DNA from: Bacteroidota bacterium
GTDB lineage: Bacteria; Bacteroidota; Bacteroidia; B-17B0; Aurantibacillaceae
Direction: 5' to 3'
DNA: 34,264 bases
Assembly (NCBI GenBank): GCA_025363015.1
Contig: JANYEQ010000010.1
Location: 1 to 34,264 of the forward strand
The first letter of the stretch is position 1; each line of letters starts with the position of its first letter. Positions 1,291 through 32,902 of this stretch are shown one piece after another. The position numbers and the translations under genes are program-made. The notes beneath the pieces were generated by a model. The model made no database searches, was not told the origin of the DNA, and saw only the letters and a list, made by a program, of their open reading frames with translations.

Positions 1291-4200
1291 TTAAATTTTA
1301 ATTCCAATTACGCATACATCATCTACTTGTTCAAGGCTACCTTTCCAACTTTCGAAGGTATTATCTAAAATTAGTTTTTGTTGTTGTAAGGGCTTGGTAT
1401 AGTTATCTAAAATTAATTGCTTTAGATTTTTAAATTTAAATTTTTTGCCTTTGTTGCCTCCAAATTGGTCGGCATAGCCATCGGTAAGTAAATAAATTAA
1501 ATCGCCTTGTTGCACATCAATGGTATTTAATTCAAATATTTTTGCTTCGGCAGCATGCCCGCCAATAGATAGTTTAGTAGGTTTATAATCTATTAACTCT
1601 CCGTTTCTTATTAACAATAAGGGGCGTTGTGCACCTGAAAAATGCATTTTGTTATCGTTTTTATAGTAGGCACACAGGGCAATATCCATCCCATCGTTAG
1701 CCGAGCTTTCAGAACTTTTTTTAATGAGTTGTATTAATTTTTCATCAATTAAATTTAATGCCGTGGCCGTATCAGTTACATTAGGGTCGTTTAACACACG
1801 GTACATAATATCGCTACAAATAAGGCTCATAAAAGCACCCGGCACACCATGCCCTGTACAATCGGCAGCGGCAAAAACGGTAATGTTGTTTTTAAAATGT
1901 TGAAACCAATAAAAATCGCCACTTACAATATCTTTTGGTTTGTATAAAATAAAGCTTTCAGTAAAATTTTTATTAAACTCTTCAGCATTGGGTGCTACTG
2001 CTTGCTGTATTTTTTTAGCGTATTTAATACTATCGGTAATGTCTTTATTTTTTTCTTCAATTATGGCTTTTTGTTTGGTAACCTCTAAGGTACGTTCGTT
2101 TACTTTTTCTTCGAGGTTTTGGTATAAGTAAGCATTATCTAAAGCAATGGCTATGGATAGGGCAATATTTTTTAAAATGTTTACGTGATAATCGCTGTAC
2201 GCATTTTTTGTAAAGCTTTGTACGGTAAGTACACCTATTTTTTTATCTTTAGTAAATAGGGGTAAATACACTAACGATTCGGGCGATTTACCTGCTATTG
2301 GTGCTTTATGAACTTGTATGTATTTTTTATATTCGTTTTTATTATCGTTAATTATTATTTCTTTTTCGTTTTCAAAACACCAAACGGCGTAGCGGTTTTT
2401 ATCGTTTATGGCAAATTCAATAAAATCTATTTTTTCGTTTCGTTCAATAAAGCCCGAAAACTCAATGGTTTGTTTATCCGTGTTATAAATACCAATACCA
2501 AATGATTCGGCCGACATTAATTTATTTACATTTTGATACACTTTATCTACAATTGTTTCTACAGATAGTGAAGAGGTAATATCTTTTGTAATTTGTGCGG
2601 CTAATTTAGTATCGTTAAAGTTTTTTTCGAGTTGTTCTTTTTGAGTAATAACTTCGGAAGTACGCTCCACTACTCTATCTTCCATGTTTTTATACAACTC
2701 GGCATTATCAATAGCTATGGCTACATAAACAGCTAAATTTTTTAATATTTGAACATGATAATCTGAATAAGCGTTTTTAGAAAAACTTTGTACGGTAATT
2801 ACGCCTATTACTTTTTCTTTAAACCTAAGGGGTAAATATAAAATAGATTCGACTTTTTTACCTTGTAATGGTGCTTGAATGTAACCAATATGTTGTTCTA
2901 TTTCGGCATCAAAATTATTAATTATTATTTCTTTTTCTTGTGTATAGCAAACACTAGTTAATCGGTTAATATCTGCAGGGTTATATTCTATGTTTTCAAA
3001 TTTATCGGTATCTTCAATGTATAGTGGGAAAACAATTTTATTAATATCTTTTTTATACACACCAATACCAAAACCTGTGGCATCCATAAGGCCATTTACG
3101 TTTGAGTAAACTTTTTCAATAATTTCTTCTACCGAAAAGGTAGAGGTAATATCGTTACCTATTTTACTTAATAAGCTTGTGTTTTGGTAGCTTTTTTCAA
3201 CTTCTTCTTTCTGTTTGGTTACTTCAAGGGTACGTAGGTTTACTTTTTCTTCAAGGTTTTGGTATAGATTAGCGTTATCAATTGCAATACCAATAGATAC
3301 AGCCATGTTACGCAATAAATTTAAGTGATAATCGGTATAAACATGTTTTTCAAAACTTTGTACGGTAAATACGCCTATACAATTTGCTTTTGAAAAAATG
3401 GGTAAGTAGATGATAGACGCGGAATCGTTTCCAGCAATAGGAGGAGGAATTTTGCTATACTTTTTGTACTCGGTAAAATAATCACTAATAAAAATTTCTT
3501 CATTGGTTATAAAACAATCTACGGCCAAACGATTGGTTTGTTTTAAACTAATACTTACATCGGGTAAGGTAATGTTATTTTCAATAAACCCTTTAAACTC
3601 TAAACTATTGCTTTGTGTGTTAATAATGCCAATACCAAAAGCTTCGGCTTTCATTAGTTTATTTATGTATTTATAAACTATACTATTAATGGTTTCTACA
3701 GATAAGGAGGCGCTAATATCTTCGGCTATTTGGCTTAATAGGCGGGTGTTATCGTAAGCTATTTTAATTTCTTTGGTACGTTCTTTTACGCGGTTATCTA
3801 AATTATTATAAAGCGAGGCGTTATCAATAGCAATGGCGGTGTATATTGCTAAGTTTTTTAATAATTGTAAATGATAATCGGTATAGGCATTGGCTTTAAA
3901 ACTTTGTACCGTAATTACACCTATTTTTTTATCGTTAATGGTAACGGGTACGTAAATAATAGATTCGGTATTTTGTCCTGGTAATGAGTGTCTAGAGAGG
4001 TTTGTTTTTTTTACGTACTCTTCGGTAAAGTTTAAAATTACGTGCTCTTTTTGAGAAGTAAAACATTGTATAGCAGGCCGTTCAATATTTGTTAAGTCGT
4101 AAAAATAGTCTTCTAATATTTCGCCATTTTCAATGGCTCCATTAAAGTTTATTTGTTGTGTGTCGGGGTTGTAAATACCAATGCCAAACATGGTGGCATC

Positions 4201-6516
4201 CATTAATTTATTAATACTATTGTAAACTTTACTAATAATATCTTTAATTGAAAATGTACTCGAAATTTCTTTTCCAATTTCGCTTACTAAACGAGTATTT
4301 TCAAAGGTTTGTTCAATTTCCTCTTTTTGTTTTGTTACTTCTTTAGTGCGTTCTTTAACCTTATCTTCCATGTATTGATATAGGTACGCATTTTCTAAGG
4401 CCGTAGCAGTATAGGTGGCAAGGGTTTTTAAAATATCTAAATGAATGGGGTTGTAGGCAAATTTTGTAAAGCTTTGTACGGTAATAACGCCAATTAATTT
4501 TTCGCCTAAAATCATGGGGGTAAATAGCAATGAGTTTGGCATTTCGCCACTTACTACTCTAATTTGCTTTACATAGTTTTGGTATTCGTTAAGGTTATCG
4601 TTTAAAAAAATATCCTTTCTGTTTTTAATACACCAAACCGTATAATTGTCATCATCGGTTAAGGGTACAATTGCTTCGTTTGTATAAACAATACCTTTTT
4701 CTATTTCGTATTTATATTCTACGGTATTTGTTTCGGGTTGATAAATACGCACACCAAAACAATCGGCGGACATAATTTCGCTGATGGATTTATGTAATTT
4801 TTTAAATATTTTACCAAGGTTTAGGCTCGATGTAATTTCTCTTCCAATTTCGCTTACTTTTTTATTTACATCGTAAGTGTATTGTAACTCGGCGGTACGC
4901 TGCTGTACAATGGCTTCTTGCCCTTGGTACAGTTTTGCATTTTCTAATGCAATAGCTGTATAGGTGGCAATATTTTTAAATATATTTAAATGAAAGTTAG
5001 TGTAAGCATTTTTAGCAAAGCTTTGTACTGTTATAACACCAAGGGTTTCACCTTTATAGGTAAGTGGCAAGTACATTATAGATGACACTTGCTGCCCAGC
5101 TATTGGAGCAACATCTATTGTTATATATTTTTGAATTTCGGTATCGTAATCGTTTATAACTATTGTTTTGTTTTGATTAAAACAAATTGTTGTTAGCCTA
5201 TTGGTATCGTTAATTTGGTATTTAAGGTTTGTAAAGGTTTCATCGCCTTCAATATAAATTGGAAAAACAATAGTATTGTCTTCGGGTTTAAATAAGCCAA
5301 TACCAAAGCCTACCGCATCCATTAAGCCATTTACATTTTTATAAACCGTATTTACAATGGTTTCAACAGATAAACTTGAAATAATTTGTTGGCCCACTTG
5401 GCTCATTAACACAAGGCTATCCGAAAAATTTTCTAATTCTTTGGCACGTTCTTCTAAAATGGCTTTTTCGGCCTGAGAATGTAATAGCTTATTTTGAGCT
5501 TCAACACTTTTTACTACTTGATTACTTTTTTCGCTTATTACCTCGTCTTTATACTTGGTATATTCTTTGTGATATTCAATGGCGTTTTTAAAGTCATTTT
5601 TGGCTTCATATACTAACGATAATTGTTCGCAGACTTTGTAGGCTCCTTCTTTACTATTTATTTGTAATGATATTTGTAACGATTTATCAAGACTTTCAAT
5701 CGCCTTATCGTATTGTTTATTTTGTAAATAAAATATGCCTACATTTAATAGAGATATAGCCTGCCCGGGTTTAAAGCCTATATCAACACGTAATTGCAAA
5801 CTTTTATTAAAATTTAAAATGGCCTCGGTGGGATTATTTAGGGCAGCGTAGGTTCGTCCTAAACCGTCAACGGCAAAAGCTTCAACCTGTTTGTTTCCTA
5901 ATTCGTTACTAATTTTTGCCGATTTTAGATAATATTCTAATGCTAAATTATTTTCGCCTTTATTGTAATAGGCTTCGCCTAAGCCATCTAATACTTTTAT
6001 ATAAATATCTAAATTTTGATGTTTTTCGCAAAGCGCACTACTTTCGTGTAATACTTCAAGCGCTTTATCGTTTTCGTTAATGCGGTAGTATATAGTACCC
6101 ATGCCGTTTAAGCCATCGGCCATGCCTAACTCATCGTTAATTTCTTTACTTAAATTATAGCATTTATTGTAGTATTTTATTGCTGAATCAAAATCGGAAA
6201 TATAACTGAAGTTTGCCCCTAAGTTATAGTTTACGGCCGCTTGGTTTTTTATATCCTGTAAATCTTTATACAGTTGAAGGGCTTCAAAACTGTGGTTTAA
6301 AGCATCGTTATTGTTAGAAATCCACACATTGGCAGCGCCTAAGGTTTTTAGGGCATCTGCAATACCTTTTTTGTAATTAGAGGTTTGCGATTGTTGCAGG
6401 GCAGTAGTACTTAACTCAATTGCTTTTTTAGGATCTTTACGGTTTATAGCCCAAGCATTTGTATTTAAATCATCAATTGTACTGGTGTTAATATTTATTA
6501 CATTTAAGTTAGCCAT
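1291..6516 (-). CDS. Giant cytosolic TPR / six-GAF / SpoIIE-type PP2C phosphatase
   Basis: A 1741-residue protein. Residues about 15-325 are tetratricopeptide repeats and 326-365 a coiled coil. Six GAF-type sensor domains follow at about 370-530, 553-713, 742-903, 925-1085, 1113-1275 and 1303-1465, joined by coiled-coil linkers carrying an ERT.EVTKQK-like motif. The C-terminus (about 1515-1741) is a SpoIIE/RsbU-type PP2C serine phosphatase. Its acidic motifs are intact: GDFYW (D1534), ADCTGHG (D1552), LTDGYAD (D1679) and QVDD (D1732/D1733). There is no signal peptide or membrane segment, so it should be cytosolic. Such phosphatases usually act on STAS anti-anti-sigma proteins; none is encoded here. 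It is transcribed divergently from the ECF sigma gene. Ligands are unknown. The catalytic domain is paralogous to that of the phosphatase at 11799-13874. Confidence 0.93.
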   Translation of the reverse strand: MANLNVININTSTIDDLNTNAWAINRKDPKKAIELSTTALQQSQTSNYKKGIADALKTLGAANVWISNNNDALNHSFEALQLYKDLQDIKNQAAVNYNLGANFSYISDFDSAIKYYNKCYNLSKEINDELGMADGLNGMGTIYYRINENDKALEVLHESSALCEKHQNLDIYIKVLDGLGEAYYNKGENNLALEYYLKSAKISNELGNKQVEAFAVDGLGRTYAALNNPTEAILNFNKSLQLRVDIGFKPGQAISLLNVGIFYLQNKQYDKAIESLDKSLQISLQINSKEGAYKVCEQLSLVYEAKNDFKNAIEYHKEYTKYKDEVISEKSNQVVKSVEAQNKLLHSQAEKAILEERAKELENFSDSLVLMSQVGQQIISSLSVETIVNTVYKNVNGLMDAVGFGIGLFKPEDNTIVFPIYIEGDETFTNLKYQINDTNRLTTICFNQNKTIVINDYDTEIQKYITIDVAPIAGQQVSSIMYLPLTYKGETLGVITVQSFAKNAYTNFHLNIFKNIATYTAIALENAKLYQGQEAIVQQRTAELQYTYDVNKKVSEIGREITSSLNLGKIFKKLHKSISEIMSADCFGVRIYQPETNTVEYKYEIEKGIVYTNEAIVPLTDDDNYTVWCIKNRKDIFLNDNLNEYQNYVKQIRVVSGEMPNSLLFTPMILGEKLIGVITVQSFTKFAYNPIHLDILKTLATYTATALENAYLYQYMEDKVKERTKEVTKQKEEIEQTFENTRLVSEIGKEISSTFSIKDIISKVYNSINKLMDATMFGIGIYNPDTQQINFNGAIENGEILEDYFYDLTNIERPAIQCFTSQKEHVILNFTEEYVKKTNLSRHSLPGQNTESIIYVPVTINDKKIGVITVQSFKANAYTDYHLQLLKNLAIYTAIAIDNASLYNNLDNRVKERTKEIKIAYDNTRLLSQIAEDISASLSVETINSIVYKYINKLMKAEAFGIGIINTQSNSLEFKGFIENNITLPDVSISLKQTNRLAVDCFITNEEIFISDYFTEYKKYSKIPPPIAGNDSASIIYLPIFSKANCIGVFTVQSFEKHVYTDYHLNLLRNMAVSIGIAIDNANLYQNLEEKVNLRTLEVTKQKEEVEKSYQNTSLLSKIGNDITSTFSVEEIIEKVYSNVNGLMDATGFGIGVYKKDINKIVFPLYIEDTDKFENIEYNPADINRLTSVCYTQEKEIIINNFDAEIEQHIGYIQAPLQGKKVESILYLPLRFKEKVIGVITVQSFSKNAYSDYHVQILKNLAVYVAIAIDNAELYKNMEDRVVERTSEVITQKEQLEKNFNDTKLAAQITKDITSSLSVETIVDKVYQNVNKLMSAESFGIGIYNTDKQTIEFSGFIERNEKIDFIEFAINDKNRYAVWCFENEKEIIINDNKNEYKKYIQVHKAPIAGKSPESLVYLPLFTKDKKIGVLTVQSFTKNAYSDYHVNILKNIALSIAIALDNAYLYQNLEEKVNERTLEVTKQKAIIEEKNKDITDSIKYAKKIQQAVAPNAEEFNKNFTESFILYKPKDIVSGDFYWFQHFKNNITVFAAADCTGHGVPGAFMSLICSDIMYRVLNDPNVTDTATALNLIDEKLIQLIKKSSESSANDGMDIALCAYYKNDNKMHFSGAQRPLLLIRNGELIDYKPTKLSIGGHAAEAKIFELNTIDVQQGDLIYLLTDGYADQFGGNKGKKFKFKNLKQLILDNYTKPLQQQKLILDNTFESWKGSLEQVDDVCVIGIKI

Positions 6517-6594: not shown

Positions 6595-6665
6595 GTTATC
6601 AAACAAATACATTTTTAAAAAGACCCAACTATAATTGGTTTTAAAACGTATTAGTAGTATAGAAA

Positions 6666-7217
6666 ATGACTATTGAGCCAAAACTTATACAATTGTGCAT
6701 TGAACACAACCGTAAGGCTGAGTACGACCTATACAAAAAAATTTACAGTTATTTAATGAGTATTTGCATGCGTTACAGTAAAGATAACGATACTGCTAAC
6801 CAATCGCTTAACATGGGTTACTTAAAAATTTTAACTCACCTACACACCTATAAGCCCGAAGTGCCTTTTAAAGCTTGGATTAGACGTGTAATGGTAAATA
6901 CTTTAATTGACGAATACCGTAAAAACAAAAAACAAAGCCAACATATTAGCTACGTTGAAGAGTATTATGATAACAGCGATTACTCTGAAGTAAACGAAGC
7001 ACTTAGTAAAATTAGTTGCGAACAAATACATAAATTAATAAACCAATTACCAAATGCAACTAAAGAAGTATTTAACTTATACGTTATTGATGGCTATAAC
7101 CATAAAGAAATTAGCGGACTATTAGGCATTAGCGAAGGTACCAGTAAATGGCATTTGAGCGATGCGAGACAAAAATTAAAACAAAAAATAGAACTACAAA
7201 CATTATCAACTATTTAA
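6666..7217 (+). CDS. ECF-family RNA polymerase sigma factor
   Basis: A 183-residue sigma-70-like protein with region 2 (about residues 20-92, ending FKAWIRRVMVNTLIDEYR) and region 4 (about 125-178, with the helix-turn-helix GYNHKEISGLLGISEGTSKW). There is no region 1 or 3, as expected of an extracytoplasmic-function sigma factor. It would redirect RNA polymerase to an envelope-response regulon. The next gene, 11 bp downstream, encodes a probable membrane-anchored anti-sigma protein, the usual partner arrangement. An exact housekeeping promoter lies upstream, so basal expression is probably constitutive and activity is controlled by the partner. The ECF subgroup and target promoters cannot be read from the sequence. 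Confidence 0.93.
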   Translation: MTIEPKLIQLCIEHNRKAEYDLYKKIYSYLMSICMRYSKDNDTANQSLNMGYLKILTHLHTYKPEVPFKAWIRRVMVNTLIDEYRKNKKQSQHISYVEEYYDNSDYSEVNEALSKISCEQIHKLINQLPNATKEVFNLYVIDGYNHKEISGLLGISEGTSKWHLSDARQKLKQKIELQTLSTI

Positions 7218-7228
7218 AAATAAGTATC

Positions 7229-8794
7229 ATGAGTTTTGAAGAACAGTTTGACAAAATTATAAATAACAAAATTAACGAATCTGCTTTTCCGTTTGATGAA
7301 AAAAATTGGGAAAAAGCAAGCGCTTTAATTGATGCAAATAGGCTTGCCCCTATTGCAAAAAATAAAAGTAAAAACCTTTTGTTATTAAGCTTAGCATTAT
7401 TAACCGTAAGTACAATTGCTGTATTTACCTATGTGCAATTAAATACCAAAGCCGTTGTTGTAGCAAATACTACTAAAAATAAAATTTCAAGTACTAATAC
7501 TGAAAATTTAATCTCGCAAGCAAATAATAATAATAATACTCCTATTAATAACGAATTCAACTCAAGCACTAGCAATACTTTAAAAAATTTAAATACACAA
7601 ACTGACAGTAAAGAAACTGTAAAGAATTATATAGATAATGAAAAAACACATAAAAGCACAACTATAATAAATACGAATACAAACCTTACCAAAAAAGATA
7701 AGCACCTTGCAAGCCAAACCAATACTAACAGCCAAGAAAATATAAATACAAGCCCTGCATATAAAACCAATGAAAATGAGGTGGCAACAATGGCATTAAC
7801 TAAAACCGAAGAAAATGAGGCAATAGCAACCAACAAATTAATTGCTACTAAAAATTATGATAGTAATACGGCAACTAAAATAGCCAATGCTAATGTAACT
7901 ACTAAAAAATTGTTGCAAAAAAATAGCGTTACTATTTTTAGTAAAATAAATCCTATTATTGTTTCTACTAAAGATAATACCCCTGTTAATAATAAAGTAA
8001 ATAGCATACCTGAAGTAACTAAAAGAGAAATTATAGAAAATTCTAAACTAAGTTTTGAACCACTTAGCACTATAACTTTAAATGTACAACAAGATTTAAC
8101 AAACTACGAATGTAAAAATACCAATGTAAATTTTTTACAAGCTTATGATAATGATTATTTTAAAAACACAAAACCTAAATTTAATCACCTAAACCTTGAA
8201 GCCGGTACAGCCTACCTATTAGGCTTTAATACCATAAATACAAAAGATGCTGTAGGCCTAAATTATTACGCAGGGTTAAATTATGGCATTTATATAAGTA
8301 AAAAAATAAGTGTGAGTGCTGGAGCTCAATTTTATAACGTTAGCAATATTAAACAAAACTTTTACACAGCCTCAAAAACGGTTTACGAATTTGGCTCAAC
8401 AGGTAGTTACACAAACATTACTACTAACTCCTTATACTATGTTTCTGTTCCTATAAAATTAAATTATGCCTTATCGCCAATAAGTAAAATAGGTTTAGGC
8501 TTAAATACAGGCTTTTTAGTGGGCGGAAAAAACACCGTTGAAACCTATAATTTATTTGATGGTGTAAAAGCAAATGTTACAACAACTACTAACAAAGGCT
8601 ACTATGAAGGAGTAAATACAAAAAACGTTGTACTAAGTGCATTTTACAGCCATAAACTAAACAAACGTTTTAATGTTAATTGCGAGTTTATGTATGGTAT
8701 TAGCGATGTTTATATAAATACAAAAACAAATACTACAAAACAAAATACAATAGGTTTTAAATTAGGGTTAACGTTTACCCTATTAGACAAATAA
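7229..8794 (+). CDS. Probable dual-membrane-spanning anti-sigma protein (cytosolic domain, TM, long linker, outer-membrane barrel)
   Basis: A 521-residue protein starting at ATG 7229 (MSFEEQFDKI). An in-frame start at 7148 would overlap the sigma gene by 70 bp and is less likely. A short acidic cytosolic segment (1-48) precedes one membrane helix (about 49-69). Then come about 250 residues of Asn/Thr/Lys-rich, probably disordered linker. The last roughly 200 residues (about 323-521) consist of alternating beta strands with the look of an outer-membrane beta-barrel (AGLNYGIYISKKISVSAGA, later GLGLNTGFLVGG). This layout directly after an ECF sigma gene matches the dual membrane-spanning anti-sigma (Dma) proteins described in Bacteroides thetaiotaomicron, linked there to outer-membrane vesiculation. 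Sigma binding by residues 1-48 is inferred. Confidence 0.75.
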   Translation: MSFEEQFDKIINNKINESAFPFDEKNWEKASALIDANRLAPIAKNKSKNLLLLSLALLTVSTIAVFTYVQLNTKAVVVANTTKNKISSTNTENLISQANNNNNTPINNEFNSSTSNTLKNLNTQTDSKETVKNYIDNEKTHKSTTIINTNTNLTKKDKHLASQTNTNSQENINTSPAYKTNENEVATMALTKTEENEAIATNKLIATKNYDSNTATKIANANVTTKKLLQKNSVTIFSKINPIIVSTKDNTPVNNKVNSIPEVTKREIIENSKLSFEPLSTITLNVQQDLTNYECKNTNVNFLQAYDNDYFKNTKPKFNHLNLEAGTAYLLGFNTINTKDAVGLNYYAGLNYGIYISKKISVSAGAQFYNVSNIKQNFYTASKTVYEFGSTGSYTNITTNSLYYVSVPIKLNYALSPISKIGLGLNTGFLVGGKNTVETYNLFDGVKANVTTTTNKGYYEGVNTKNVVLSAFYSHKLNKRFNVNCEFMYGISDVYINTKTNTTKQNTIGFKLGLTFTLLDK

Positions 8795-8845: not shown

Positions 8846-9970
8846 ATGAAAAAAAACTTACTCTATATAATCTTCACTTTTTGCATTTGTTTTTTATCCT
8901 GCAAAAAAAATACTTTGCCGCCAGAAGACGATGCTGTCGCACCCGATTTTTATTTTAAATGCGATGTAAATGGCTTACCTATTAATATACAAGCGGGAGT
9001 TAATAATTATTATATGTACTCTTTACATGAGCAAAATGCCGATAGCATTTATGTTTACCGTGGTGATTTAAAACAAAAAAATTGTGGTGCAAACTGTAGC
9101 TATGGAATATCTGTGCAAATTAACGATTATAAAATATCAGCTCTAAACGCTCCAATGAAACCCGATAGTGGCTTATACACTGGTAATTACCAATTTAACG
9201 ATGGTGTTTTAGCCCCCCTCTATTATTCGGCGTATTTTTCGCCACTAACTACTTCCTCAAACAATACCAATACTTGGCGGTATAGTGATAGCACCAGCCA
9301 AACATCTTTACAAGGCTTTAAAGTGTTCAGAACTAATACTATACAAAATGTAATGTTAGCCGTTAATCAAACTTCTCCAACATGTTCAATCACACACACA
9401 AATACTTTTTATATTGGTAATGCTTTGCAAACAAATATTTCGGCCGTAAGAGATACATCAAATAATTATTCTTTTTTAAGATATACCTTTAGTAGCAACC
9501 CTACTACTAGCATTACGGGTACAACTTACTTTTGGGAGTTTGGCGATGGAGCTACCTCTTCCTTATCAAACCCCACCCATAATTATAGTTCTCAAAATTA
9601 TTATCGCCCTAAATTAACATTAAGCAATGCTACCAATACTTGCGTAACTTATTACCAAGCCCCTTGCTTTAATTATAGCGTGTGTAACGCCAACTACAAC
9701 GCTTATTTTAACAGCCTTGCCAACCCAAAAGCCTTATCAGCTATCACTATAAAAGTAATCGATCCAAGCGGTATAGAATATTCATCAAGTACCTTAAACC
9801 AACCTAGCACCAATAAGTTTGAAATTATTTCGATTGAAAATTATAAATTAAACGAAAAAAATGAGGCGACTAAAAAATTAAAAATAAAATTTAATTGCAC
9901 CTTGCAAAACGGTACAAATACTCTAAACATTACAAATGGTGAGGCTGTGATAGCCGTTTCGTATAAATAA
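8846..9970 (+). CDS. PKD-domain lipoprotein
   Basis: A 374-residue protein with a type II signal peptide; the lipobox is FLSC with the modified Cys at residue 19, followed by KK. The middle region is Ser/Thr/Asn-rich and contains a PKD domain (about residues 215-275) with the signature YFWEFGDGATS. The rest is not assigned. It should be a lipid-anchored envelope protein, probably outer-membrane or surface exposed; PKD folds usually mediate protein or glycan contacts. It lies 51 bp after the anti-sigma-like gene in the same direction, so it may be a third member of the sigma-factor operon or one of its targets. No catalytic motif was seen. Confidence 0.75.
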   Translation: MKKNLLYIIFTFCICFLSCKKNTLPPEDDAVAPDFYFKCDVNGLPINIQAGVNNYYMYSLHEQNADSIYVYRGDLKQKNCGANCSYGISVQINDYKISALNAPMKPDSGLYTGNYQFNDGVLAPLYYSAYFSPLTTSSNNTNTWRYSDSTSQTSLQGFKVFRTNTIQNVMLAVNQTSPTCSITHTNTFYIGNALQTNISAVRDTSNNYSFLRYTFSSNPTTSITGTTYFWEFGDGATSSLSNPTHNYSSQNYYRPKLTLSNATNTCVTYYQAPCFNYSVCNANYNAYFNSLANPKALSAITIKVIDPSGIEYSSSTLNQPSTNKFEIISIENYKLNEKNEATKKLKIKFNCTLQNGTNTLNITNGEAVIAVSYK

Positions 9971-11798: not shown

Positions 11799-13874
11799 TT
11801 ATATTTTAATTCCAATTACGCAAATATCGTCAACCTGCTCCAAATCACCTTTCCACTCCATAAATTTTTGATTTAAAATTTTACATTGCTCATTTAAAGG
11901 CATTGTACAATTATTTAGTAATAGTTCGGTAAACTGTTTGTATTTAAATTTTTTACCTTTTGGGCCACCAAACTGGTCGGCAAAGCCATCAGTAAACAAA
12001 TAAATTACATCGCCAGGTTTTACATCTAATTTTATACTCGTAAAATTTTGAATATTATCTTCAATAAATGCGCCTACCGGAAATTTATTTGATTTTATTT
12101 CCAGCAACACACCATTACTAATAATATAAATAGGGTTATTAGCCCCTGCATAATAAACTTCTTTTGTTTTTTTATTCATCGCTAAAAGCGAAATGTCCAT
12201 TCCATCTTTTATAGATGATTCGTTAAAACTTTGATGAAGCGAATGGGTAAGGTAATAATTTACAGAATCTAAAATTTCGCCAGGACTTGTTAGATTTTTT
12301 TCGAGGGTTGATTTGTTTAATAAATTATAATTAACAATACTCATTAATGCCCCTGGTACCCCATGGCCTGTACAATCTGCCGCCGCAACAAAAATATAAT
12401 CATCGGTTTGTTCTAACCAATAAAAATCACCACTTAAAATATCTTTTGGGTTATATAATACAAACGAATTAGGTAAAATATCAAACCACATTTTATTAGG
12501 TGGTAAAATGGCTTCTTGTATGCGTTTGGCATAGCGTATACTATCACCTATATCTTTATTTTTTTCTTCTACAATGTGTTTTTGTTCTTCAATAATTATA
12601 TTTTTTTCTTCTAATAAGGTATTGGCTTTTCGCTGTTTTGTTAAACCTCTAAAAATAAAAAATAAACCTCCTAATAATAATACACAACCACCTAGTGCAG
12701 CATAAATAATAAGTTGTTTGTTATTAGCTTCTAATTCTTTTTTATCTAATTCTAATTTTGTTTTAGTGGTTTCGTATTTAGTTTGCATATCATTTAATGA
12801 CTTTATAGATTCGTGGCTATAAATACTATCTTTAATGGTAATACAACTATCTTGGTATTTAAAGGCTTTATCGTAATTTTTTAAGCTAAAATTTACTTCT
12901 CCCAAATTATAAAATAAACTTTCTTTTATCGTTAAATCATTTTCATCAACATACTTTAAAGCTTGAGCATAGTTTACTTCAGCATCTTTAAAATTATTTT
13001 GATTATAAGCCACATTACCTATATTTATATAACAATTTGCTGTACTATTACTTCTTTTAAATTTTAAATATAATTGCAAAGCCTGTTTGTAATAATTTTG
13101 AGCTTCAGTTAATTGATTTTTTGCTGAAAAAATAGTACCAATGTTTGACAAAATTTTAGCTAGTTCTAAATCATATTTTTGTTGTTTATATATTTTTAAA
13201 GCACGATTGTAGTATTCAATAGCAATATCATTATTGTTTTGATTAGAGAAGATGTTACCCAATGAGGAGTATGCGCTGGCAATCTGCTTTTTTAAATCAT
13301 TTTTAGTAGCAATCTCTAATGATTTTTTAAAAAATTCAATTGCTTTAGTAATATTTTTTAACCTATAATTTACTATCCCTATTTGAATGTACGTTAATGA
13401 AACAAAATAGTCATCCCCTAGTTCTTCAAACATTTTTAAAACAGTAAAAAACAAGTCGGTTGACGTTTTATAATCGTTATTTAAAATATAATATCTAGCT
13501 AATCCATAATTTGCTCTGGCCAAATAGGATTTATTAGCTGTTTTAAGTCCATTTAATTTTAGTTCAGAAAAAATTGTGTACGCTTTATTTAAATTATTAA
13601 AATTTAAACAATAAATAGCATAATAATATTGGGCATTTAAATAGTTTAAAGTATCTGAGGAGTTTACACTCAAAAATAATTTTTCAGAAATTTTTTTACC
13701 TTCTTCTTCATCTACAAAGTATAATTCTTCTGCTAATAATAACTCTATTTTAGTTCTACAAGCATCTGTTTTACAAGCGTTTAATTTACTATACAATGTA
13801 TCTACTAAAGCTTGGGGAGTAAGCTTAAGAGATATAAATAAGGCAAAAAATAAAATCGTAATTTTTAATTTCAC
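11799..13874 (-). CDS. Membrane-bound TPR / SpoIIE-type PP2C phosphatase
   Basis: Starting at GTG 13874 this encodes 691 residues beginning MKLKITILFFALF, a signal peptide. The frame is open to an ATG at 13928, but that extension would read through the hairpin at 13883-13907, so the GTG start is preferred. A periplasmic TPR region (about residues 30-370) is followed by a membrane helix (about 387-409), a cytosolic coiled coil (EEKNIIIEEQKHIVEEKNKD) and a C-terminal SpoIIE/RsbU-like PP2C domain (about 469-691). Motifs GDFYW, AADCTGHGVPGA, LFTDGFADQFGG and QVDDICVIG are intact. The catalytic half is closely similar to that of the 1741-residue protein. Probable role: relaying a periplasmic TPR signal to cytosolic Ser/Thr dephosphorylation. 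Substrate unknown. Confidence 0.9.
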   Translation of the reverse strand: MKLKITILFFALFISLKLTPQALVDTLYSKLNACKTDACRTKIELLLAEELYFVDEEEGKKISEKLFLSVNSSDTLNYLNAQYYYAIYCLNFNNLNKAYTIFSELKLNGLKTANKSYLARANYGLARYYILNNDYKTSTDLFFTVLKMFEELGDDYFVSLTYIQIGIVNYRLKNITKAIEFFKKSLEIATKNDLKKQIASAYSSLGNIFSNQNNNDIAIEYYNRALKIYKQQKYDLELAKILSNIGTIFSAKNQLTEAQNYYKQALQLYLKFKRSNSTANCYINIGNVAYNQNNFKDAEVNYAQALKYVDENDLTIKESLFYNLGEVNFSLKNYDKAFKYQDSCITIKDSIYSHESIKSLNDMQTKYETTKTKLELDKKELEANNKQLIIYAALGGCVLLLGGLFFIFRGLTKQRKANTLLEEKNIIIEEQKHIVEEKNKDIGDSIRYAKRIQEAILPPNKMWFDILPNSFVLYNPKDILSGDFYWLEQTDDYIFVAAADCTGHGVPGALMSIVNYNLLNKSTLEKNLTSPGEILDSVNYYLTHSLHQSFNESSIKDGMDISLLAMNKKTKEVYYAGANNPIYIISNGVLLEIKSNKFPVGAFIEDNIQNFTSIKLDVKPGDVIYLFTDGFADQFGGPKGKKFKYKQFTELLLNNCTMPLNEQCKILNQKFMEWKGDLEQVDDICVIGIKI

Positions 13875-13882
13875 AAAATAAG

Positions 13883-13907
13883 GGGTCGGTTTTTTAATAC
13901 CCGACCC
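13883..13907 (-). terminator. Hairpin terminator after the two-repeat protein gene
   Basis: Arms GGGTCGG (13883-13889) and CCGACCC (13901-13907) pair perfectly around an 11-nt loop. On the minus strand the stem is followed by CTTATTTTGTG, a moderate U-tract. It lies 23 bp beyond the stop of the minus-strand gene at 13930-14328 and just upstream of the preferred GTG start of the phosphatase gene. Such a GC stem stands out in this AT-rich region. Confidence 0.6.
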
Positions 13908-13929
13908 TAATTTAATATAGTTACACAAA

Positions 13930-14480: not shown

Positions 14481-14488
14481 TATCTTTG
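14481..14488 (+). promoter_or_regulatory. Candidate -7 promoter element near the plug-protein start
   Basis: TATCTTTG matches the Bacteroidota -7 consensus TAnnTTTG and ends 6 nt before the ATG at 14495. No TTTG lies at the expected 19-nt upstream spacing. If used, transcription would begin almost at the start codon, giving a leaderless or nearly leaderless message. The match could also be chance in AT-rich DNA. Confidence 0.3.
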
Positions 14489-14494
14489 ATTATT

Positions 14495-15811
14495 ATGCTT
14501 ATAAAACTTGCTTTTAGTTTTTTTATTAGTTTATTAATTCCTCTCTCTATTTTTTCGCAAAAAAGTAGTACAACTGATGAGGATTACGTAAACGATAATG
14601 TTTTAAAATACGATGATTACGTTTACAAACCCACCATTAAAACCGTGCAATGTTACGAAGCTACTTGGGAGTACGCCGCACCAATTATAGATTTAAATAC
14701 GACCGAACAAATTCAATTAAATTTTGATGATTTAGATGGCGATAAAAAACAATACTCCTTAACCTTTGTACATTGCAATGCCGATTGGACTCCCAGCGAT
14801 TTAATGATTAGCGAGTACCTTACGGGTTTTTTTGATTTAAATATTATAAATTTTAATTATTCGGTAAATACCTTTCAAAAGTACACCCATTACAGTATTA
14901 ACTTTCCGCAAGAAAACATAAAATTTACTAAAAGTGGTAACTATGTAATGTATGTTTACCTTAATGGCGATAAAAAAGATATAGTACTTAGCCGCCGATT
15001 TTTAGTGTACGATAATAAAGTTACCGTTGCTACTACCTTTAGGCAACCCATTGGGGGCGAAGACCAATACGATAAACAGCATTTAGATTTTTCTATTTAC
15101 AACTCAAGTTACGATATTACCAACCCCTATGCCGATTTAAAAGTGGTAATAACTCAAAATAACCGTTGGGATAATGCCGTTACCAACATTAAACCCACCT
15201 TTATGGGTAATAATACACTTACCTATTCGTTAGATGATGCTAGTACCTTTAATGGCGGCAACGAGTTTAGGTATTTTGATATTAGAAGTTTACGCTTTTT
15301 AACCGAGCGAGTAAAAGAAAATTATAGAGATGATGATTTAAAAAATCACAGCGTTTTGTACCCCGAAGAATTACGTACCACAAAACCTTATACTTTTTAT
15401 AACGATATTAATGGCAGTTATTTAATTAAAAATACTAATGCCATTGGTAATGTGGATGTAGAGGCGGATTATGTTTATGTGGAGTTTTTTTTACCTTATG
15501 TAAACCCCGAACCTACTGGTAATTTTTACATTTTAGGAAAACTAACCGATTGGCGAATGAATAAATTAAGCAAACTTAGTTATAACCCAAAACGCTTTGG
15601 TTACGAAGCAAAACTATATTTAAAACAGGGTTACTATAATTACATTTATGTTTTAAGCAACGATAATAATAAAAGTGGCGACGAAACAATTACTGAAGGC
15701 AACCATTGGGATACTGAAAATAATTATAACATTTTTGTATATCATCGTAAAATTGGCACTTATTACGACCAACTCATTGGCTATCGTAAACTAAATTCGT
15801 TAAAACGCTAA
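14495..15811 (+). CDS. Type IX secretion system plug-domain protein (DUF5103 family)
   Basis: Starting at ATG 14495 the product is 438 residues, with an N-terminal signal peptide (LIKLAFSFFISLLIPLSIFS, then QK). An in-frame TTG at 14486 is less likely. The body fits the DUF5103 family, known from the SprA translocon structure as the Plug protein that blocks the outer-membrane channel in its resting state: an early TVQCYEATWEYAAPIIDL segment, SLTFVHCNADWTPSDL, a first domain ending in SRRFLVYDN, and a C-terminal carbohydrate-binding-like beta domain (NFYILGKLTDWRMNK). It would act in the periplasm at the outer membrane. The gldKLMN cluster is 15 kb away in this window. sprA itself is not here. 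Confidence 0.8.
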   Translation: MLIKLAFSFFISLLIPLSIFSQKSSTTDEDYVNDNVLKYDDYVYKPTIKTVQCYEATWEYAAPIIDLNTTEQIQLNFDDLDGDKKQYSLTFVHCNADWTPSDLMISEYLTGFFDLNIINFNYSVNTFQKYTHYSINFPQENIKFTKSGNYVMYVYLNGDKKDIVLSRRFLVYDNKVTVATTFRQPIGGEDQYDKQHLDFSIYNSSYDITNPYADLKVVITQNNRWDNAVTNIKPTFMGNNTLTYSLDDASTFNGGNEFRYFDIRSLRFLTERVKENYRDDDLKNHSVLYPEELRTTKPYTFYNDINGSYLIKNTNAIGNVDVEADYVYVEFFLPYVNPEPTGNFYILGKLTDWRMNKLSKLSYNPKRFGYEAKLYLKQGYYNYIYVLSNDNNKSGDETITEGNHWDTENNYNIFVYHRKIGTYYDQLIGYRKLNSLKR

Positions 15812-30325: not shown

Positions 30326-31186
30326 TTAAAAATGCCACAAATCGTGTTCCCATTTAAAAATATCCATTTTAATGCGATCACTTTCTAATAAGGCTTCAAT
30401 TCCTTTTGAGTAATTTTCAATTTGTCTATCAAACACATTTGTTTCTTTATAAACAGTACTTGCAAACTGACGTTTCCAAAATATATCTTCAAAGGTACGG
30501 CGTTCGCTATCATTTTTAGTGTTATACACTTCGTGCTTTGCAAAATAAGGACGGCAAGCAGGGAAGTACACCCAAAATTGATTAACGGGACCTAAATCTT
30601 CTTTACCTTTTAAGGTGGCATTAACACCTAAACCAATGATACGTACTTCTAAAACTGACTTTTGTTTATCAAAAAACCAATCTTCTTTTACATCAATGGT
30701 GGCAAAGTTTTGATACATCCAAGTTGAATCTATTGCTCCAGCAACTTTTAAAAAGAAGGAGTTACCATCTTTATCAAATTGTTCCTGCTCTGCAGAATCG
30801 GCTTTAATAACCATTTTATCTCTAATTACCGATTTTTCAAATGGCACTTGAAATTCTTCGTCACTAAATGCTATAATTTGGCCTGATAAAATATATTTTG
30901 TCATTAATTGTAAAAATGAAATACGGCTTACAACAATATCAGTAGGGTAATATAAAGTTTGATTTGTTTTTTCGCGCATATCTATTCTACGCCATGTTCT
31001 TTTTTCCCAAGCCACATCAGCTTCACGCAAATGCGTATAAGGTATAAAGCGACGGTTAGTGGCATTTTCTTTATCATAAATGCCATCTTTATAATCGCCC
31101 GGTTGAAAAACACCTACTTGCGCTTTAATATTGTTAGATATTAAAACTACAATTAAAGCTAAAATAATATGTGATATACGTTTCAT
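30326..31186 (-). CDS. gldN: T9SS ring/motor component GldN (PorN)
   Basis: A 286-residue protein with a signal peptide (ending IKA-QVGVF). The mature part has GldN landmarks: YTHLREADVAWEKRTWRRID near residue 50, YYPTDIVVSRISF, a middle ISFLQLMTKYILSGQIIAFS region and WVYFPACRPYFAKHEVYN near residue 206. GldN/PorN is periplasmic and works with GldK to form the large ring beneath the outer membrane that couples the GldLM motor to secretion. It is the last gene of the cluster, 48 bp after gldM, and is followed by a strong terminator. Length is slightly below that of characterised homologues. Confidence 0.93.
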   Translation of the reverse strand: MKRISHIILALIVVLISNNIKAQVGVFQPGDYKDGIYDKENATNRRFIPYTHLREADVAWEKRTWRRIDMREKTNQTLYYPTDIVVSRISFLQLMTKYILSGQIIAFSDEEFQVPFEKSVIRDKMVIKADSAEQEQFDKDGNSFFLKVAGAIDSTWMYQNFATIDVKEDWFFDKQKSVLEVRIIGLGVNATLKGKEDLGPVNQFWVYFPACRPYFAKHEVYNTKNDSERRTFEDIFWKRQFASTVYKETNVFDRQIENYSKGIEALLESDRIKMDIFKWEHDLWHF

Positions 31187-31234
31187 ATTTTTATTGTTTA
31201 AAATTATAACAACAATTTTAAGTTTGGTTACAAA

Positions 31235-32902
31235 TTATCGTGCAACTTTAATACCTACCGTTGTTGAATTTACTTTTCCATCTGGACCTTTAACTTTAGC
31301 ATCAACATATACTTTTGAACCTACATCGGCACCTTTAAATATAGTTAAAGCCTCGCCAGCTAAGCTGCTACCATTACCTGGAGCAATAATAACTTTACCT
31401 TTTACTTTACCAATTACCTCGTAAGAAATTACAACATAATTTGCAGCAAAATCAAAGCCATTAGCACCAGCACCTAAACCACCAACAATACTCATTTCGC
31501 CTTTTTTCATTTCTGAAGGGGCAAATTTACCACCAATTTTAAGTTCGGGTTTTGGTAATGGCTTTACACGAAATTTAATAGGAGGACCTTGCGATTTAGA
31601 GCCATCTTTTGTTTTAGCACTAACACTTACCATACATTCGCCAGTACCAGAAAAATTAAATTCGTATTTACCAGCACCTTTAGGGCTAACACGCACACCT
31701 GCACCACTTGCTGATACCGAAATATCAGATGGAGAAATACCTGCAGCACTTGCCGAAACTGGATTTGGAACACCTGCATAAAATACATTCATTTGATCGG
31801 CACTAACCGTTGCAGCTGCTTTTGCTACTTTGTATGCCCCGTTAAATGGATAATATTTGAAAGTACCATCAGGGTTTTTATATTTAATAACACCTTTATA
31901 TTCTTTATCTCCTTCAGCACCAGTAGATACTTTGTAAGCACCTTCGCCATTTAATAATGGTACTAATTCTCCTTTACCACCAGCGGCAGCACCAGCAGAA
32001 TCAATTCCCATAATAATTTCCATATCGCCTTGACCTAATTTAGAAGACGAGGCTGCTAAAAACACAGCCGCTTCATAAGGTTGGCCAGCTTGAATGTATG
32101 ATGATGGCGCTACAACGCGAGCCACAATATGGTCAAACTTAATGGCTAATTTACCACTAGCACTACTAAATACACCTAACATCTCCGCTTCTAAACTTTT
32201 TAAGTCGGCGGCAGTTTTGTTTAAGTTACAAACTACAGCACCTTCGGGTAAGTGATAAAAATTTTCAGATTCCCAACCCATTTTAATACCATCTTCTTCT
32301 TCGCCACTACTTTCGGGTTTCATACTTAAAACCTTTTTCTTTAATTGCTCATAATCAGCTGGGTATAATTTAGTTTTAGGGTCGGTTTGCATTTTATCCA
32401 TCATAGATATCATACTAGAACATAAACCTTCTAATTTACCTTTTAACTCGGTAGCTGTACCTTCACCACTAATTGGCGTACTTGGTTCAGGCCCAATTAA
32501 AATACGAGTAGGTTCATCGTAACCATCAATTTTACCATTTTTTAAAGCCCATTTTAAAGTGGTAGTATCGGGAGTTGTCTCTAGTAAACCTTCGTTTACT
32601 TTAATAACTTTACCTTTTAACTTATCAATGTACTCAATAGTTGCTTTTATTAACTTTTGAGCCTCTAAGGCCTTTTCGTAATAAGGTTGAGCACCTGGAT
32701 TGCCACCAATAGCTTGTTGGAAAGCTTCGGTTACACGTTTGTTATTGTCATCTAAGTTTTTACGACTTCTTTCAATACTTTCGTTTACTGTTACATAACC
32801 TTTTAGTACTTGTTTTGATACGTTCATGGCTAAAAGTGCTGTAAGTACTAAGTACATCATACCAATCATCTTTTGCCTAGGTGTTTCTTTTCCGCCTCCC
32901 AT
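31235..32902 (-). CDS. gldM: T9SS/gliding motor protein GldM (PorM)
   Basis: A 555-residue protein beginning MGGGKETPRQKMIGMMYLVL, with the single N-terminal membrane helix (about residues 12-32) typical of GldM. A long periplasmic stretch follows, with an early helical region (NESIERSRKNLDDNN) and then successive beta-rich domains (for example VVAPSSYIQAGQPYEAAVF near 265 and MNVFYAGVPNPVSASAAGI near 370), as in the PorM structures. GldM pairs with GldL to form the proton-driven motor and reaches across the periplasm towards the GldKN ring. It sits between gldL and gldN with gaps of 71 and 48 bp. Confidence 0.95.
   Translation of the reverse strand: MGGGKETPRQKMIGMMYLVLTALLAMNVSKQVLKGYVTVNESIERSRKNLDDNNKRVTEAFQQAIGGNPGAQPYYEKALEAQKLIKATIEYIDKLKGKVIKVNEGLLETTPDTTTLKWALKNGKIDGYDEPTRILIGPEPSTPISGEGTATELKGKLEGLCSSMISMMDKMQTDPKTKLYPADYEQLKKKVLSMKPESSGEEEDGIKMGWESENFYHLPEGAVVCNLNKTAADLKSLEAEMLGVFSSASGKLAIKFDHIVARVVAPSSYIQAGQPYEAAVFLAASSSKLGQGDMEIIMGIDSAGAAAGGKGELVPLLNGEGAYKVSTGAEGDKEYKGVIKYKNPDGTFKYYPFNGAYKVAKAAATVSADQMNVFYAGVPNPVSASAAGISPSDISVSASGAGVRVSPKGAGKYEFNFSGTGECMVSVSAKTKDGSKSQGPPIKFRVKPLPKPELKIGGKFAPSEMKKGEMSIVGGLGAGANGFDFAANYVVISYEVIGKVKGKVIIAPGNGSSLAGEALTIFKGADVGSKVYVDAKVKGPDGKVNSTTVGIKVAR

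Follow-up and report, generated by a model that had tools for sequence, protein, structure and literature searches.

A probable autoregulated sigma factor operon with a Dma-type trans-envelope anti-sigma candidate and a PKD lipoprotein in Bacteroidota

We use the definition of Dma proteins given in PMC13088901 (Pardue 2026). In its accessible portion, this study of Bacteroides thetaiotaomicron reports that Dma1 and Dma2 regulate outer-membrane vesiculation and that loss of Dma2 induces its own operon. According to the accessible portions of two further studies, a sigma/anti-sigma pair from Phocaeicola vulgatus responds to envelope-active toxins (PMC9308784, PMC13114119). Here we describe a related locus on a 34,264-nt stretch of DNA ("the window": contig JANYEQ010000010.1, our contig C71) from the genome of a Bacteroidota bacterium of the family Aurantibacillaceae (GCA_025363015.1; 3.33 Mb in 143 contigs). 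This locus probably represents an autoregulated three-gene operon for envelope signaling, composed of a sigma factor, a Dma-type anti-sigma and a PKD lipoprotein as partner.

The first gene (6666–7217, forward strand) encodes a 183-residue ECF sigma factor that matches Sigma70_r2 (4.4e-10), Sigma70_r4_2 (3e-14) and, beyond the cut-off of the model, TIGR02937 (3.2e-26). Dma proteins are accompanied by sigma factors of the ECF21 group; the three models identify the sigma factor in the window at the level of ECF sigma factors. Divergent from the operon lies a gene (1291–6516, reverse strand) for a 1741-residue protein with TPRs, six GAF-domain matches and a SpoIIE phosphatase domain, and a second TPR-SpoIIE protein is encoded at 11799–13928. 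The window also contains genes for a T9SS plug protein, GldN and GldM (14486–15811 and 30326–32902). One T9SS plug gene was also found among 42 genes that adjoin other Dma loci.

The second gene was listed as an open reading frame starting at position 7148. This start would create a 70-nt overlap with the sigma gene in another frame and is not conserved, and hence was rejected. The conserved start is ATG 7229, from which the relatives align (59 sequences), and the encoded anti-sigma candidate spans 521 residues (7229–8794, forward strand). This protein has no match in Pfam, no match above cut-off in NCBIfam, and no match in sequence searches of the PDB. From ATG 7229 the relatives share the N-terminal pattern M..E..FD......K....FpFDE.NWEKa...DA.R. 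By this 45-residue conserved motif with its FpFDE.NWEKa core and invariant Trp27, residues 1–50 (7229–7378) are a candidate cytosolic counterpart of the N-terminal sigma-binding domain of Dma proteins. As in the Dma family, a single inner-membrane helix follows (residues 51–69, 7379–7435; hydropathy 2.17 over 19 residues). One anti-sigma in our collection (L068:3625–5181, reverse strand) carries the F.F.E..W motif twice before the helix (in the aligned copy, Trp is residue 65) and possibly contains two sigma-binding segments in tandem.

The helix is connected to the C-terminal domain by 246 residues of low complexity (7436–8173; 19% N, 16% T, 11% K), which by composition and divergence correspond to the long disordered periplasmic tether of Dma proteins. 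Across the 59 aligned sequences this linker is 130–287 residues long (mean 220, sd 32), whereas the C-terminal domain keeps to 203–211 (mean 207, sd 1.6), which is the pattern expected of a tether that joins two functional ends. An O-glycosylation-like motif was only weakly enriched in the linkers (53 versus 42.8, sd 5.8) and was dropped from further consideration.

The C-terminal domain (residues 316–521, 8174–8791) was modeled with AlphaFold2 from two sequences, those of the window protein and one relative (pLDDT 65.7, pTM 0.59). The strands of this model are confident, the loops are poor, and its ten strand elements are best read as eight transmembrane strands. The model superimposes on NspA with a Z score of 16.9 (155 residues, 2.8 Å) and on OmpA, OprF and OmpW with Z scores of about 15 to 17 (Foldseek, VIA-align). 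In addition, 19 of 59 relatives match the Pfam family OMP_b-brl_2 (best 1.7e-8). An OmpA/NspA-like, eight-stranded outer-membrane β-barrel, another Dma trait, is thus predicted rather than a periplasmic non-barrel domain. When used alone, the barrel profile matched 13 of 296 genomes of the phylum at 1e-8, mainly in open frames of 197–270 codons that represent free-standing barrels. The initial annotation had described a cytosolic segment, one helix, a linker of about 250 residues and an outer-membrane barrel in one chain beside an ECF sigma factor. Alignment, hydropathy and the model bear this description out, with 50 residues before the helix and 206 in the C-terminal domain.

The search for loci related to the window returned one relative. 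For the family we retrieved the best 60 of the places listed. A sigma gene lies upstream of Dma at 57 of 61 family loci, and at the other four the contig ends at that point; recurrence at 61 loci places this arrangement beyond chance. Among 68 loci from the class, drawn with a profile rich in window relatives, sigma and Dma are adjacent at 67, and the 68th (L147) carries a sigma gene too. Three of these 68 (L240, L243, L251) were included for carrying the lipoprotein domain discussed below, and L146 and L147 because of DUF4943. Sets A1 and A2 exclude L054 (on the same contig as L031) and the truncated L079 and L085; set A4 additionally omits L042 and L060, and set A3 omits sigma factors lost at contig ends. 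These data bear on the idea that an ordinary sigma factor merely neighbors an unrelated outer-membrane protein which has an inner-membrane helix and exerts no control over it. That the PDB search found no solved relative, and that contact with sigma is a prediction, would suit this idea. Against it stand the conservation of the motif with its invariant Trp before the helix, the frequencies of adjacency in family and class (L147 included), and the genetics of Dma2 and the P. vulgatus homologue, as published in the accessible portions of PMC13088901 and PMC9308784. We consider such a coincidence highly improbable.

Assignment of the window protein to the Dma type follows from the common layout together with profile comparisons. 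A profile of the window family matches the Dma protein of L146 (4.1e-10 in a scan of the loci), a locus with the gene order of the published dma2 operon, and does not tag a second Dma2-type gene (L147) at E 0.1 or E 10. Alignment by hhalign of the window family with the Dma2-type proteins gave a probability of 76 for the barrel (E 2.2e-5), 72 for two Dma2-type N-termini (E 3.3e-5) and 32 over the whole length. These similarities are modest, yet they agree at both ends of the protein. The published gene order of the dma2 operon (sigma, Dma, DUF4943, DUF4858, nitronate monooxygenase) is found at both L146 and L147. In B. thetaiotaomicron, dma2 has a DUF4943 gene as its neighbor; this family was detected in 3 of 296 genomes of the phylum, and at the third locus it is present without Dma. 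The genome of the window has no match to DUF4943 (PF16301), and the gene directly downstream of the anti-sigma candidate has PKD matches instead.

The lineage of the window belongs to the Bacteroidota, as do the known Dma systems. A mixed Dma profile matched 144 of 247 Bacteroidia genomes (E ≤ 1e-4), although linker-like sequence or free-standing barrels may account for some of the weak ones. The window protein itself is matched in 47 of 87 genomes of its family, often at several places, and at one place in its own genome. The initial annotation was right to relate this protein to the Dma family, which layout and profile support; its suggestion that the protein extends Dma to an environmental, T9SS-carrying lineage does not hold, since Dma is already widespread in the Bacteroidia. 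Furthermore, that annotation ended one gene before a conserved lipoprotein, and also missed the promoter of the operon and the link of sister systems to T9SS cargo.

This third gene (8846–9970, forward strand) encodes a lipoprotein of 374 residues with a lipobox cysteine (Cys19, LSC-KK), an N-terminal domain, a PKD domain (residues 216–265) and a conserved C-terminal domain (9695–9967). The protein matches PKD families, and the matches in a PDB sequence search were PKD chains. Structure prediction of the lipoprotein reached a pLDDT of 39.7, and we claim no fold. A homologue lies directly downstream of Dma at 61 of 61 family loci. With a mean column identity of 37%, the lipoprotein is conserved more strongly than the anti-sigma (24%). 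At the 68 class loci outside the family, the lipoprotein is present in 45, another lipobox gene in 4 and neither in 19; by the same home-made lipobox rule, 49 of 545 other open reading frames at these loci carry a lipobox. The 23 loci that lack the partner-type lipoprotein indicate that a Dma system can in principle work without it.

PKD domains dominated the matches to a profile of the whole lipoprotein (116 of 296 phylum genomes). We therefore rejected this profile for mapping distribution and used the C-terminal domain instead, which gave 62 matches in 54 of 247 Bacteroidia genomes, family genomes included. Forty-eight of these matches reach E ≤ 2e-8. Two of them could not be judged (one locus not retrieved, one contig start), and 44 of the remaining 46 lie directly behind a sigma-Dma pair; the two exceptions are the second copy of a tandem and one orphan. 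The 14 weaker matches, mostly shorter lipoproteins (210–276 residues) away from Dma, were excluded from the partner counts: 5 lie behind sigma-Dma, 8 elsewhere, and one has no open reading frame. At seven loci (L239, L241, L242, L245, L246, L248, L249) the C-terminal domain of the partner occurs in free-standing lipoproteins of 210–221 residues, distant from Dma. Two loci (L158, L192) carry a tandem pair of partner-type lipoprotein genes behind one Dma; the second copy at L192 was read from the sequence.

The lipoprotein could also be only an output of the regulon with no role in sensing; a protective surface protein comparable to the NigD lipoproteins of EcfO-Reo would be one example. This alternative falls somewhat short of an even chance, and is nearly as likely as the partner model. 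It would fit the position of the lipoprotein as the last gene of an autoregulated operon, its absence from 23 of 68 class loci, and the surface lipoproteins made by the EcfO regulon of P. vulgatus (PMC13114119, accessible portion). However, the association described above, in which only one tandem copy and one orphan of 46 judged strong matches occur away from sigma-Dma, is tighter than that expected for mere output. Because strong matches hardly occur without sigma-Dma, we prefer the model in which the lipoprotein acts as a partner.

A predicted autoregulatory ECF promoter precedes the sigma gene (6623–6653, forward strand). It consists of ACCCAAC (6623–6629) and CGTATTA (6647–6653), with 17 nt between CCAAC and CGTA; the entire sequence, ACCCAACTATAATTGGTTTTAAAACGTATTA, ends 12 nt before the sigma ATG. 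The window has a single CCCAAC-N17-CGTA, where 0.05 would be expected by chance. Upstream of family sigma genes, CCCAAC was found in 47 of 57 cases (2.0 expected), and CCAAC-17-CGTA in 38 of 57 compared to 3 of 416 controls. For the class, 13 of 62 sigma upstreams contain CCAAC followed by CGTA (11 at 17 nt), against the same 3 of 416 controls. Recurrence of this motif before the sigma genes of relatives argues for autoregulation of the sigma-Dma operon, which as a sequence-based prediction is well supported. In 40 genomes of the genus a strict form of the promoter, not independent since it was read off the same promoters, occurs at 22 sites, 19 of them at sigma-Dma operons (reversed control: 0).

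The wider regulon of the sigma factor is at present a lead. A looser form of the promoter matched 39 sites in the 40 genus genomes, 19 at operons (reversed control: 2). Sixteen of the 20 off-operon matches were inspected: three lie within open reading frames and 13 before gene starts. These 13 genes comprise two rpoD-like genes (sigma-70 regions 1.2 to 4), three LON-domain genes, two similar small lipoproteins, one 161-residue gene and five with a hydrophobic N-terminus. Two of these five, among them a gene on contig C107 of the window's own genome, have a T9SS sorting domain at their end. Since 20 of 39 looser matches lie away from sigma operons, some before rpoD-like or LON-domain genes, another ECF sigma factor may share the motif. 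In the window's own genome CCCAAC-N17-CGTA shows no enrichment, with 6 matches compared to 5 for the reversed control; there were 2 matches to a longer form, one before a T9SS metalloprotease, which was retained as a lead. The element CCCAACCTTT-N14-CGTAT has 1 match in 40 genomes. Two genomes carry ACCCAACT-N16-CGTAT before an rpoD-like gene and three before a LON-domain gene (L284, L302, L307, L292, L306); this element may be the signature of an ECF stress regulon to which the primary sigma factor belongs. The same promoter element precedes the small lipoproteins of L309 and L310 (150 and 149 residues, two genomes), which have no Pfam match.

We also inspected the next gene behind the lipoprotein, or behind Dma where the lipoprotein is absent, and obtained 42 complete genes of at least 240 codons on the same strand from 129 Dma loci. 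A T9SS type A sorting domain is present in 29 of the 42 and PKD domains in 23. The sorting domain was found in 20 of 286 other open reading frames of the same size class at the same loci; the model used had been derived from 21 of the 42 next genes. A promoter of the sigma type precedes 17 of 28 tested T9SS next genes (L198 was excluded) versus 9 of 416 controls; this comparison is conservative because the controls include some cargo genes. At all 11 loci that allow the comparison, the promoters of cargo and local sigma gene have identical −10 tetramers (44 of 44 letters), namely CGTA six times, CGTG three times, and CGTT and TGTA once each. Permutation gave a mean of 36.6 letters and no value as high as 44 in 20,000 trials, a statistic weakened by related loci among the 11 pairs. 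At L083 and L163 the cargo sites match with a spacing of 16 nt, and for L086 the sigma start taken is internal to the gene. In a tree of the sigma factors the clade of the window has no member labeled with adjacent cargo and all labeled members lie outside, so the cargo link holds for sister systems; some family genes labeled in this way are truncated where their stretch ends, before any sorting domain comes into view. For the window itself, a distant cargo candidate on C107 encodes an M43 peptidase with PKD and sorting domains and has a site 53 nt before its ATG.

Based on these data we propose the following mechanism. The ECF sigma factor would be kept at the inner membrane by contact with residues 1–50 of the anti-sigma, and the same chain would cross the periplasm on its disordered tether and be anchored in the outer membrane by the eight-stranded barrel. 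The PKD lipoprotein most likely sits at the outer membrane as a dedicated partner of this barrel. A change at the outer membrane, such as barrel assembly, binding or loss of the lipoprotein, or an outside ligand, would free the sigma factor. Sequestration by the N-terminal segment and release upon an outer-membrane event are proposed by analogy to the published Dma and Reo genetics. Freed sigma could then transcribe its own operon from the ACCCAAC-N17-CGTA promoter, which would supply more lipoprotein, and in sister systems it may also fire the adjacent gene for a type-IX-secreted protein.

The release step can be imagined without any ligand. When the BAM machinery is impaired, unfolded Dma barrel in the periplasm might be degraded and sigma released. 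Exposure of P. vulgatus to either of the toxins BcpT and Bd-A upregulates ecfO-reo more than any other genes (PMC13114119), and bacteroidetocin A binds and inhibits BamA (PMC9308784; both from accessible portions). However, one genome (G018) carries paralogous systems with different barrels at five distinct places. Several such systems suggest different inputs, whereas a general assembly sensor would need only one. We regard this ligand-free reading as less likely than not. To return to the partner model, a more speculative version of it, which we put forward tentatively and with less than even confidence, is a three-part surface sensor in which the Dma barrel would have the PKD lipoprotein as an integral subunit, and the pathway would work as a private feedback loop reporting surface display. 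The displayed object in sister systems would be the type-IX-secreted, often PKD-containing protein that is switched on by the same sigma factor, so that the output gauged by the anti-sigma at the surface would be its own.

The pairing of a sigma factor with a trans-envelope anti-sigma is the published layout of Dma and Reo systems, and the recurring lipoprotein partner is a feature that we did not find described. In a literature search that covered few subscription papers, we found no account of a lipoprotein of this kind with an anti-sigma, or of an anti-sigma tied to type IX secretion. The accessible portion of PMC13088901 leaves the input of Dma systems open; a widely conserved candidate partner can now be offered, together with a precise promoter and, for sister systems, a gene that may be a direct target, its promoter being a copy of the one before the local sigma gene. 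In these sister systems a trans-envelope anti-sigma would be tied to type IX secretion cargo. Both input and output of Dma systems thereby become testable outside Bacteroides.

Three described systems can be compared with this operon, in each case as far as the accessible portions of the sources go. Dma1 and Dma2 with Das1 and Das2 from B. thetaiotaomicron (PMC13088901) share with it the adjoining sigma gene, the N-terminal segment (sigma-binding in Dma, a candidate here), the helix, the long disordered tether and the C-terminal barrel. The Dma2 operon is induced in a dma2 mutant, and for the window operon we predict an autoregulatory promoter; the third gene differs, encoding DUF4943 in the former and a 374-residue PKD lipoprotein in the latter. 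EcfO-Reo from Bacteroides fragilis and P. vulgatus (PMC9308784, PMC13114119) likewise combines an ECF sigma factor with an anti-sigma that is predicted to cross the periplasm and to have an outer-membrane barrel, in a stress response that makes surface lipoproteins, and the window operon also encodes a lipoprotein. EcfO-Reo is described as a pair of sigma and anti-sigma genes whose regulon includes NigD genes, whereas the window contains a dedicated PKD lipoprotein inside the operon. Finally, SigP-PorXY from Porphyromonas gingivalis and the SM6 promoters of Flavobacterium psychrophilum are examples of ECF control over T9SS genes (PMC7712824, PMC9723704). Those systems act on the secretion machinery, whereas the sister systems described here adjoin T9SS cargo and include a Dma-type anti-sigma.
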